39,439 nt of DNA from Planctomycetota bacterium. Lineage in GTDB: Bacteria > Planctomycetota > Phycisphaerae > WQYP01. The stretch covers positions 1-39,439 of the forward strand of contig JAKBMM010000002.1 in NCBI GenBank assembly GCA_021831565.1, given 5' to 3'. This document shows positions 9,051-12,044 of the stretch, in pieces. Positions within the stretch are counted from its first letter, which is position 1, and each line of letters opens with the position of its first letter. A program made the position numbers and the translations under genes. The notes beneath the pieces are model-generated. The model was not told where the DNA came from. It saw only the letters and a program-made list of their open reading frames with translations, and did no database searches.

Positions 9051-9410
9051 CTAGTCCTGGTGCGCGCTGGCGCTCTTCAGAAACGCCAACACTTTCTTCG
9101 CCTGTTCCCCGGTCAGCCCAGCTTTGAGTCGCATGTATTGGACAATAATGCCCCATTGCGCCGGCGTGTATTGCGCCGGCGAGCGCAACTGGTGGCATCG
9201 CATGCAGTTTTCCGACCAGATCTGGGCGCCGCTTTCGTGGGCGGCGGGGTCCTGGATCGCCAACGGCCAAACGCCCGCTGGTTTCTTGGTGACGGCGGCC
9301 GACTTGGTTGTTGGAGTGCCGGCGCAACCCGCCATAACCACAATGCCCAGCGCCGCGGCGCCGGCGATGATAACTTTACGAATACCTCTGTTGTATTGGG
9401 ACGCGTTCAT
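9051..9410 (-). CDS. monoheme cytochrome c lipoprotein
   Basis: This small protein (119 residues) is predicted to be a lipid-anchored c-type cytochrome. The N-terminus has a basic stretch, a hydrophobic segment and the lipobox MAGC with the lipidated Cys at residue 29. Ala at +2 argues for sorting to the outer membrane. A single heme site CMRCH spans 69-73, and Met93 in YMRLKAGL is a likely axial ligand. The ATG at 9410 is chosen because a strong AAGGAG sits six bases upstream. The frame extends to a TTG at 9425 without support. It lies 19 bases after the porin gene and is the last gene of the three-gene unit. Its role in electron transfer at the outer membrane is an inference from context. 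Confidence 0.85.
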   Translation of the reverse strand: MNASQYNRGIRKVIIAGAAALGIVVMAGCAGTPTTKSAAVTKKPAGVWPLAIQDPAAHESGAQIWSENCMRCHQLRSPAQYTPAQWGIIVQYMRLKAGLTGEQAKKVLAFLKSASAHQD

Positions 9411-9429
9411 GATAAACTCCTTCAATCAA

Positions 9430-10767
9430 TCAGATACCCACCGCGAATTGAACGAACATCGCATCGTTGCCATGTTGCGCGTTGGAAAGGTTATCGAATT
9501 CGTACTCGAACTTGAGCACGGCATTCGAATGCAACCAGTAATCAAGACCCACGCTCCAGCGCTGCTCATGTCCGGGTGTGGGAAATCCTGACGTCGCCGG
9601 GCCGTCAATGTAATCATAGCGGAGCGCGGCCATCATGCGATCAAGATATTTTATGCCGCACATGCTGGGCTGGTACGCCGCTTCAATCTGGCCGCCGTCG
9701 GACATATTGCCAAAAGCGAAAGTGGTGGTTCCAGGTATGACGCCCTGGCCAACCTGGTCCCAGGCCCAGCCGCCCCGGAATCGGACCAGACCGTCAATTT
9801 TCTTGTTCACATAGTATGTGTTGAAGTCAACCGCCTGCACCATGGAATTACTGGTTCGTATGGCGCCATCGGCGCTGGGCCGGGCATATTCAAACGAGTA
9901 ACCAACCTCAACATTGGGAATGGGCAGGTAGCTGACTCTGCCGCCGACCGTCTTGCCGTTTTGGGCGGCTGGATTCCAGTTTCCGTAAGTAAGCGTGTTG
10001 TACGGACTACCCGCGGTGGATGCCAGCGCCGGCCCGTTGCTCACAAACAGAAAGTAGGTGAAATAACCGAGATTGTTTGGTGCGGGCACGCCGCCGCGGG
10101 TCCATACGCCAAGCTCATTGGGTGGCAGCAGGTTGTCTTCCAGGGAGCCGTCAACCAGCCAGCGGTTCCATGGCGCCGGGTTGTAAATGCCGACGATTCC
10201 ACCGATGGGACTGGAGACCAGGCCGCCGCCGATAGTCATGTAGTTGTTAAGTTCGTAGTTGATGTTGGCCGCGCCCATATCGGCCTGGGCGCCGCCAGCC
10301 GCCCCGCTCTGGGTATAGAAATCAAAGCCGGCGTTGATGAAAATGTGTTTATCGACGCGAACTTGAATCAACGGGCTGGCGTCGGCATAGAACGTTGACG
10401 CGCTGCCGCTTTTGTGAATAAACTGGAAGTTCACATCGCCGTCGATCAACACCTGAATGTTGCCAGGTTCCAGTTCGGAGATTCTCTGGGAGGCGGCCAT
10501 AACCTTTTTATAAAGGCGCCGGAACTCCGCCTTGGTGGCCTTTTCGCTCATGGTCGCCTTGGCCACGGCCTCTTTTTTGACCTCGGTCATCTGTTTCTGC
10601 ATGGCCGTCATCTGCCTGGCCATGGTCGCCATCTGGGCCTGGAGAGCCTCGTACTTCTTCTCCAGTTTTTTGTAGTCGGCTCTGGCCGGTGCGGCCTGGA
10701 GGCCGGCCGCCGGCAACATGGCCAGCGCCAGCCCGATACACATTGCCATCCTTTGTTTGTGTTTCAT
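9430..10767 (-). CDS. outer-membrane porin with N-terminal coiled coil
   Basis: The 445-residue product starts with a Sec signal peptide (MKHKQRMAM followed by a hydrophobic run ending AGLQAAPA). A heptad-rich coiled coil follows at about 28-95 (LEKKYEALQAQMATMARQM and similar), then a long region of alternating polar and aromatic residues typical of a beta barrel, ending in MFVQFAVGI. This architecture resembles phosphate-selective-porin-like proteins, but no substrate can be assigned. The ATG at 10767 has AAAGGA about eleven bases upstream; the open frame begins earlier at 10836 without support. It is the middle gene, 43 bases after one cytochrome and 19 before another, which raises the possibility of an electron conduit. 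Confidence 0.82.
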   Translation of the reverse strand: MKHKQRMAMCIGLALAMLPAAGLQAAPARADYKKLEKKYEALQAQMATMARQMTAMQKQMTEVKKEAVAKATMSEKATKAEFRRLYKKVMAASQRISELEPGNIQVLIDGDVNFQFIHKSGSASTFYADASPLIQVRVDKHIFINAGFDFYTQSGAAGGAQADMGAANINYELNNYMTIGGGLVSSPIGGIVGIYNPAPWNRWLVDGSLEDNLLPPNELGVWTRGGVPAPNNLGYFTYFLFVSNGPALASTAGSPYNTLTYGNWNPAAQNGKTVGGRVSYLPIPNVEVGYSFEYARPSADGAIRTSNSMVQAVDFNTYYVNKKIDGLVRFRGGWAWDQVGQGVIPGTTTFAFGNMSDGGQIEAAYQPSMCGIKYLDRMMAALRYDYIDGPATSGFPTPGHEQRWSVGLDYWLHSNAVLKFEYEFDNLSNAQHGNDAMFVQFAVGI

Positions 10768-10810
10768 GATTATGTGTTCCTTTCCTAAAAAAAACCAACG
10801 ACGGCGGATG

Positions 10811-11266
10811 CTACTTGCCGCCGCCGGCCGGGTCAAACTCCTTGTGTAGGTAATTGATCACATCCCACCGCTGATGCCTGCTCAGGCTGCCTTGAAAGCT
10901 CGGCATCGGACTGTGGCCATGCGTGATTTTCCAGAAAATATCCCCGTCAGACTGTTTCCAAAACTGCGGCCGGGTGAAGTTGGCAGGATGCGGCGAAAGA
11001 AACGCGCCGGTCGGACCATCCCCTTTGCCATTGTGCCCATGGCAGGCTTCGCAGTTTTGCGTGTAGACCACTTGCCCGCTATGGATGGAGGCCGCCGTGG
11101 CTGGTATGGGGTTGACCATGGTTCGGGCCGACCGCGGGGCTTTCCAGTGATCGAAACACCGCGCATGCCCGCCACGGGTGATGTTATAGCCGGCAACCAG
11201 CGACGCGGTCATCGCGGCGGCAAGAGTTGCTGCGGTCAGACAAACCTTGAATCGCATGGGGATCAT
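10811..11266 (-). CDS. periplasmic monoheme cytochrome c
   Basis: A 151-residue c-type cytochrome with an N-terminal hydrophobic segment (residues 8-26) serving as signal peptide or membrane anchor. The single heme-binding site CEACH lies at 72-76, followed by GHNGKGDGP. The likely axial ligand is Met121 in HSPMPSFQG, and the domain closes with RWDVINYLHKEF. The heme domain resembles the monoheme subunit ActE of alternative complex III, but no other Act genes are present. The ATG at 11266 follows AGGAGG by five bases, a near-perfect ribosome-binding site. It heads the three-gene unit with the porin and the cytochrome lipoprotein. A LacI-type palindrome lies about 63 bases upstream. Confidence 0.88.
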   Translation of the reverse strand: MIPMRFKVCLTAATLAAAMTASLVAGYNITRGGHARCFDHWKAPRSARTMVNPIPATAASIHSGQVVYTQNCEACHGHNGKGDGPTGAFLSPHPANFTRPQFWKQSDGDIFWKITHGHSPMPSFQGSLSRHQRWDVINYLHKEFDPAGGGK

Positions 11267-11328: not shown

Positions 11329-11346
11329 TCGTGAAACGTTTCACGA
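11329..11346. promoter_or_regulatory. perfect 18-bp palindrome, LacI/CcpA-type operator
   Basis: TCGTGAAACGTTTCACGA reads identically on both strands. Its core TGAAACGTTTCA, with a central CG, has the form bound by LacI/GalR-family regulators, including CcpA-type sites. It lies upstream of the minus-strand cytochrome gene at 11266. A TATATA at 11352-11357 can serve as -10 box, which would put the palindrome over the start of transcription, as expected for a repressor. No LacI-family gene lies in the window. Confidence 0.6.
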
Positions 11347-11530
11347 AGCGGTATATACACCATCCACTTGTAGAACATAAAACTACAGCCGCAAAAAATC
11401 GGGAAAAAGCGAAAAATACCGGAAAATACTATGCGGAATTTCCCCCATACCACCATTAGGAAATACCCTTATAACCTACTAGGGGAATTTCCCATCGCGC
11501 TGGCGATTTATCCCGAAGACTCAAGCGCGT

Positions 11531-11575
11531 CTGCTCTATTTTTTCGCCCACCGGCGAAAAAATCGGGGCGCAGGA
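11531..11575. repeat. distal copy of the tRNA-Pro 3' end plus terminator (attachment-site-like repeat)
   Basis: These 45 bases match 12275-12319 except for two single-base insertions or deletions. They contain an 11-bp terminator hairpin (ATTTTTTCGCC 11538-11548, GGCGAAAAAAT 11553-11563) and then TCGGGGCG plus CAGGA, corresponding to the last 13 or so bases of the minus-strand tRNA-Pro gene. No other tRNA sequence is here, so it is not a second tRNA. A duplicated tRNA 3' end in direct orientation is what integration next to a tRNA leaves behind. Confidence 0.6.
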
Positions 11576-11687
11576 CAACAAGAGAACTTTTTGCCGACGT
11601 TGTCAAGTCACTTCCCGGGCAAATTGAGCGCATCGTATCGTTAACATTACGGTTGCTGTAAAATAAGTTGGTCAATTGGAGCGTGCA

Positions 11688-11778
11688 ATGCCCGTTATTT
11701 CGAAAGGAAGAATTGATTGCCAACTGGCAGCTCGCCGTCAACGGAGAGCGGCCTTTCCGCATTGAGCCACTGAAGTAG
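11688..11778 (+). pseudogene. remnant of a DUF4160-family gene
   Basis: The ATG at 11688, with GGAG upstream, opens with MPVIS, the usual beginning of DUF4160 proteins (MPTIS in relatives). The frame is then lost. In another frame the stretch ending at TAG 11776-11778 reads KEELIANWQLAVNG and then ERPFRIEPLK, the typical C-terminus of the same family. Start and end are thus present, but the middle (about 50 residues) is deleted and the frame shifted. Intact DUF4160 genes commonly precede DUF2442 genes, as here, and the pair is often regarded as toxin-antitoxin-like. A TAAAAT at 11659-11664 may be the old -10 box. Family identification is from memory of conserved ends. Confidence 0.6.
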
Positions 11779-11786
11779 GAGACGAC

Positions 11787-12044
11787 GTGATAATCACTGT
11801 AACCGCCGTGCGCCCCTTGGATAATTACCAACTGGAACTCTCGTTTAGTACCGGCGAGACCCGCCGCTTCGATGTCCGGCCGTATCTGAATAAGGGCATT
11901 TTCAGCGAGTTGAAGGACGCGGCCTATTTCCGTTCAGTTCGCCTGGCATTCGGCAGTATCGCCTGGCCGCACGAGCAGGATTTTGGGCCGGAGTCGCTTT
12001 ATGTGGAATCAGTCTGCGCTCCTGCCGCCACGAGAGAACAATAG
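11787..12044 (+). CDS. DUF2442 domain protein
   Basis: An 85-residue protein of the DUF2442 family, recognisable by VTAVRPLDNYQLELSFSTGE near 4-23, RRFDVRPYL, the FSELKD segment and FGSIAWPHEQDFGPESLY near 61-78. The GTG start at 11787 has AGGAG six bases upstream. DUF2442 proteins are small, of unproven function, and are usually encoded directly after a DUF4160 gene. Here only a broken DUF4160 remnant remains nine bases upstream. It is the only intact gene between the two tRNA-Pro-derived repeats, so it probably came with the small island. Confidence 0.78.
   Translation: MIITVTAVRPLDNYQLELSFSTGETRRFDVRPYLNKGIFSELKDAAYFRSVRLAFGSIAWPHEQDFGPESLYVESVCAPAATREQ

Follow-up and report, generated by a model that had tools for sequence, protein, structure and literature searches.

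A conserved porin-cytochrome cassette with two monoheme cytochromes in a planctomycete family and its relatives in other phyla

The window analysed here is the whole of a 39,439-nt stretch of DNA (positions 1 to 39,439 of contig JAKBMM010000002.1, assembly GCA_021831565.1, Planctomycetota bacterium), and its contig belongs to a 2.81-Mb MAG. On the minus strand it carries three genes in the order cytA, porin, cytB (Table 1), all of them located where a preliminary description of this DNA, made from the sequence alone, had placed them. That description called the genes closely packed, and they are: the gaps are 43 nt between cytA and the porin gene and 19 nt between the porin gene and cytB, each gene begins with an ATG preceded by a good ribosome-binding site, and we found no terminator-like element between the genes of the cassette. 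The porin starts at the ATG at 10767, a longer open reading frame opening with TTG being an unlikely start, and cytB starts at the ATG at 9410.

Table 1. Features of the cassette and of the region upstream of it (nucleotide positions in the window).
Feature	Position	Strand	Description
cytA	11266-10811	-	secreted (or N-terminally anchored) monoheme class I cytochrome c, 151 aa
cytA heme site	11053-11039	-	CEACH
cytA M121	10906-10904	-	probable distal ligand (P-M-P)
porin	10767-9430	-	signal peptide, coiled coil and predicted 16-strand barrel
porin coiled coil	about 10674-10477	-	about residues 31-96
porin barrel	about 10455-9433	-	predicted
cytB	9410-9051	-	lipoprotein monoheme cytochrome, 119 aa
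cytB lipobox	9335-9324	-	MAG-C, Ala at +2
cytB heme site	9206-9192	-	CMRCH
cytB Met93	9134-9132	-	probable distal ligand
palindrome TCGTGAAACGTTTCACGA	11329-11346	no strand	18 bp, perfect; ~62 nt upstream of the cytA start
two small ORFs	11508-12044	opposite	overlapping; upstream of the cassette

The palindrome ahead of cytA is a possible regulator site of LacI-operator-like appearance. Its core, TGAAACGTTTCA, occurs at just one other place in the genome and is uninformative as a marker of a regulon. The two small ORFs further upstream are conserved only in the sister genome, and one of them looks DUF2442-like when judged by eye.

The first gene product, cytA, has a hydrophobic N-terminus and one CEACHG motif, and it matches the Pfam family Cytochrome_CBB3 (PF13442) at 3.5e-13, with 50.1 bits against a cut-off of 27. 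Five residues (W41, C72, C75, H76 and M121) are invariant in 19 aligned sequences, and the protein combines a CXXCH site, a probable distal Met and an above-cut-off Pfam match, the features by which class I cytochromes c are recognised. Its closest NCBIfam model is cytochrome 579 (1.3e-14, below that model's cut-off), the shuttle cytochrome of Leptospirillum, and its closest solved chains are those of cytochrome c552 (9vr0 and 7o9u, 2e-18). With both of these, and with ActE, a subunit of alternative complex III, cytA shares the class I monoheme fold and probable His/Met ligation; this likeness is general to class I cytochromes, with scores far under the family cut-offs. Copies of cytA without an adjoining porin occur in several genera (L043:9400-9846, L047, L050 and L061), some of them next to CusCBA-type RND efflux genes or a DoxX/HvfX-like gene.

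The porin was said to have a long N-terminal coiled coil, and a coiled coil is indeed found ahead of the barrel, for which a low-confidence predicted model (pLDDT 63, pTM 0.59) gives 16 strands when interrupted strands are counted as one. A Foldseek search with this model returned ordinary 16-strand diffusion porins of the OmpC/OmpK36 type at E about 1e-11, a score at which many barrels would match. Taken alone, the window porin has no significant porin match in Pfam; among 31 homologues, 13 match Porin_O_P (PF07396) and 9 match Porin_4. Searches of solved structures found no sequence relatives with the single protein, and chance coiled coils only with the profile. Compared with OprO/OprP-type and Porin_4 proteins, the window porin and its relatives differ in having a coiled coil and an obligate cytochrome partner of their own. 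There is no CXXCH in the window porin, the heme protein being encoded by a separate gene. A 567-aa ORF elsewhere in the genome (L002, G000:C55:13178-13336) is 42% identical to the porin in the coiled coil only and is possibly another coiled-coil outer-membrane protein.

cytB carries a lipobox Cys followed by a residue other than Asp (MAG-C-A), the sequence pattern of outer-membrane lipoproteins, and the same holds in the window's family, where each of the 16 members examined has a lipobox and none has Asp at +2. Its match to Cytochrom_C in Pfam is barely above the cut-off (5.5e-4), comparison with solved structures gave nothing convincing, and its predicted model reaches a pLDDT of 65. The strongest sequence signature lies downstream of the heme site: Met93 stands exactly 20 residues past the heme His, as does a Met in 66 of 66 cytB members, nearly always in the context [HYD]MR and with a Trp between the His and the Met. 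Judged by this shared pattern the cytB set is a recognisable cytochrome family, in which the conserved Met probably serves as the distal ligand. The heme sites, the lipobox and the Pfam matches together bear out the two monoheme cytochromes of the preliminary description, one with CEACH and one a CMRCH lipoprotein with Ala at +2. A search of viral contigs found no cytB.

Within the window's family, significant matches to the porin and to cytB fall in the same 16 of 31 genomes, and the two genes are adjacent wherever the assembly shows both; in one genome (G016) the porin match is at the level of the coiled coil only, owing to the shortness of the contig that carries cytB. Class-wide sampling found the porin in 22 of the 28 family genomes and in 10 of 270 others. 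Sample names in the record titles make the family's habitat look like mining and other acidic sites; we found no literature that ties these titles to acid mine drainage sites. Most genera of the family have cytA ahead of the porin; in one genus (g2) cytA lies on a separate contig from the porin.

A scan of GTDB genomes across phyla, with the porin as the only query, yielded 72 loci, with record titles naming Planctomycetota, Verrucomicrobia, Alpha- and Gammaproteobacteria, Calditrichaeota, Ignavibacteria, Bacteroidetes and Myxococcales; titles of MAG records may be wrong, and a 'Desulfobacteraceae' locus (L142) is probably misbinned. Of the 59 loci that extend at least 450 bp past the porin and in which the contig start does not truncate the porin, 58 encode a cytB-type cytochrome as the next gene; these loci are not independent of one another but were picked without reference to cytochromes. 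The divergence of cytB also tracks that of the porin: the correlation coefficient r is 0.90 across 61 loci and stays at 0.84 when the 43 distant loci are taken alone. In a set of 39 distant loci, the porin correlates with cytB at 0.85 and with cytA at 0.70. Because porin and cytB co-occur across the genomes of the family and adjoin each other at nearly every usable locus, chance grouping of the two is excluded. The gene order reported for the window is thus conserved in relatives, and the sequence comparisons support the view that cytA, porin and cytB form a conserved, compact, monoheme module.

On which side of the outer membrane the hemes lie is best judged from the relatives. The cytB proteins of Proteobacteria and of most Verrucomicrobia lack a lipobox and begin with an ordinary signal peptide, and a second heme domain is present in the cytB chain at L132, L137, L141 and L149 and on a Legionella and an Alteromonas plasmid. 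The Legionella anisa plasmid (NZ_CP082853.1; L157, 26211-28487) also encodes three cytochrome c domains N-terminal to the porin barrel, the one heme-porin fusion among the relatives. By established topology the N-terminus of a porin faces the periplasm, and an Ala at +2 would place a lipoprotein in the inner, periplasm-facing leaflet of the outer membrane. The N-terminus of Cyc2 is likewise placed in the periplasm (PMC8406198). The proposal that the module holds one heme on each side of the membrane fails on this comparative topology, since cytB is soluble or fused in Proteobacteria and the Legionella heme domains sit at the periplasmic end of the porin. Most likely the hemes of cytA and cytB are both on the periplasmic side, and on the simplest reading the lipid anchor of cytB in the window's family holds it in the outer membrane's inner leaflet. 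Downstream of the fused porin, the Legionella locus encodes a diheme cytB-like protein and a triheme cytochrome.

The genes around the cassette differ among lineages. In one genome of the window's family (G008, locus L059), genes for an FeS protein, an NrfD protein and a 188-aa protein are followed by cytA, porin and cytB on one strand, neighbouring genes either overlapping by 1-4 nt or standing 10-13 nt apart, and the FeS and NrfD pair precedes the cassette in five Phycisphaerales-type loci in all (L059, L106, L109, L110 and L114). The two proteins are DsrO-like (1e-52) and DsrP-like (2e-36), both under the curated cut-offs, and their place ahead of the cassette points to exchange between the quinone pool and an outer-membrane site. 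The pair recalls DsrMKJOP and QrcABCD, but no DsrMKJ or Qrc catalytic or multiheme partner was seen in the cassette. In the window's genus this pair does not adjoin the cassette. The window genome encodes ACIII and an aa3 oxidase, which could plausibly accept electrons from cytA, and it has no match to the MtrB/PioB barrel (PF11854). Neighbours at other loci include a COX3-cytochrome fusion with an EB_dh-like diheme protein, and a plastocyanin/FG-GAP protein. About a dozen non-planctomycete copies (among them L131, L132, L143-L147, L150 and L155) adjoin copper genes: CusS, CopA/CopB, HMBD P-type ATPases, CusA, DUF411 and MerR.

Several further neighbours deserve mention. In a proteobacterial MAG (L156:9956-17179) genes for a decaheme MtrA-like protein and an MtrB/PioB protein follow the cassette at a distance of 2-3 kb. 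On plasmids of Alteromonas and Glaciecola (L158 and L159) the porin is accompanied by a diheme cytochrome of the cytB type; NiFe-hydrogenase genes follow a few kb downstream, and copC/copD are close by. A radical-SAM pair of the heme-biosynthesis type (TIGR04053/AhbD-like and NirJ1/AhbC-like) adjoins the cassette in genera g3, g5, g6 and g9 (L049, L050, L051, L053, L046, L056-L058, L081 and L082), in differing orientations, and possibly has a functional tie to heme supply.

Of the known outer-membrane systems, the cassette most invites comparison with Cyc2 and Cyc572, fused monoheme cytochrome-porins that work with a separate periplasmic shuttle, Cyc1 or cytochrome 579 (PMC8406198, PMC10654088). 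The published description of Cyc2 gives it a 16-strand OprO/OprP-like barrel and a single heme on the periplasmic side, with Fe2+ entering the pore (PMC8406198). The cassette would resemble it in having one heme per conduit, a separate shuttle and a periplasmic heme, and its porin may have a barrel of the same kind. In the cassette, however, the heme protein is separate from the porin, as a lipoprotein or a soluble protein, and the porin has an N-terminal coiled coil in place of the heme domain. The Cyc2 motif AXPXFAR[QK][TY], 5 aa before CXXCH, is absent from cytB, a bare 'FAR' in 7 of 66 relatives having a spacing unlike that of Cyc2, and the PXL motif 4 aa after CXXCH is found in none of the 66 members; sought as a DNA pattern, the Cyc2 motif is absent from 41 genomes, that of the window included. 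With the defining motifs absent and the heme protein unfused, the cassette is, by its sequence features, not a member of Cyc2. Nor, on the same kind of evidence, is it an MtrAB: like MtrAB, MtoAB and PioAB it encodes an outer-membrane porin together with c-type cytochromes, but it has single hemes only, no decaheme MtrA, and no 26-strand MtrB barrel in the genome. We found no description of such a porin-cytochrome module in a literature search covering mainly papers from outside the subscription journals.

Putting these observations together, we favour, at a little short of even confidence, the view that the trio acts at the outer membrane as a porin-cytochrome module in the manner of a split, unfused Cyc2, with both hemes on the periplasmic side. 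The porin, a putative barrel of the OprO/OprP superfamily type, would admit a small redox-active solute, most likely a metal ion in reduced form such as Fe2+ or Cu+; cytB, held by its lipid anchor in the inner leaflet, would dock at the periplasmic mouth of the barrel and take an electron from the substrate at the pore, or give one to it; and cytA would shuttle the electron across the periplasm, in some relatives to the DsrO/DsrP-like quinone module and in the window genome probably towards the ACIII/aa3 respiratory chain. What argues for this is the adjacency of porin and cytB, their correlated divergence, the invariant Met, the heme fusions, the operons with the quinone module, the copper neighbours, cytochrome 579 as the nearest model of cytA, the architecture described for Cyc2, and a genome with ACIII and aa3 oxidase and no MtrB or Cyc2 motif. 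Against it count the lack of a heme in the porin itself, the derivation of Fe2+ and Cu+ as substrates from the neighbours of distant relatives and the likely habitat, the weak porin model, the fold matches to ordinary diffusion porins, the separate contig of cytA in genus g2 and the missing Cyc2 motif in cytB. Of the preliminary description's idea, the compact monoheme module, conserved and joined in several Phycisphaerales-type loci by a quinone pair, is supported, and the arrangement of one heme per side is not.

That original arrangement, a periplasmic cytA and a surface-exposed cytB with the barrel as conduit between them, appears highly improbable. A lipobox with a residue other than Asp at +2 is present in all family members, and surface lipoproteins do occur in known conduits, but in Proteobacteria cytB is soluble or fused to cytA, the Legionella heme domains lie on the periplasmic end of the porin, and two single hemes across a membrane would be too distant for fast transfer unless one entered the barrel. 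A more credible alternative, which we consider somewhat unlikely, is ordinary porin-supplied redox chemistry in the periplasm, in which the porin admits a small nutrient or ion and the cytochromes serve a periplasmic enzyme or a respiratory branch with no electron event at the pore. The fold matches to general diffusion porins and the Porin_O_P and Porin_4 matches of the relatives are consistent with it, as are neighbours that vary by lineage (quinone module; COX3 and EB_dh-like; plastocyanin-like; hydrogenase); a general porin, however, would need neither a single, near-obligate cytochrome family across phyla nor fused heme domains.

Metal detoxification is the remaining alternative and one that we judge unlikely: Cu(I) would be oxidised, or copper exported or sensed, at the outer membrane by a cytochrome-based counterpart of CopA/CueO, which is a multicopper oxidase. 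Such a device overlaps in chemistry with the split-Cyc2 reading and differs from it in purpose. In its favour, distant copies adjoin copper genes (CusS, CopA/CopB, HMBD ATPases, CusA, DUF411, MerR and CopC/CopD) and cytA homologues in the window's family adjoin CusCBA-type RND genes, but the cassette in the window's own genus has no adjoining copper genes, and the Verrucomicrobia and Phycisphaerales copies mostly have other neighbours.

Predictions of outer-membrane electron transfer usually start from multiheme MtrA-type proteins or Cyc2. A separate monoheme porin-cytochrome pair would escape searches based on these, although it is found in several phyla and has a signature as simple as a porin followed by CxxCH-19-M. 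We tentatively propose, with more doubt than belief, that a widespread class of unfused monoheme porin-cytochrome gates may exist, made of a barrel, a CxxCH-19-M cytochrome and a shuttle, sometimes wired to a DsrO/P-like module, and serving the oxidation of extracellular Fe(II) or Cu(I) or the reverse reaction. If real, this class would span Planctomycetota, Verrucomicrobia, Proteobacteria and others, including bacteria that have neither Mtr nor Cyc2. If electrons do move at the outer membrane in this way, the cassette would add a minimal design, and a testable candidate in bacteria with unexplained ties to metal cycling; if it handles copper instead, it would add an unrecognised cytochrome-based part to copper resistance loci.
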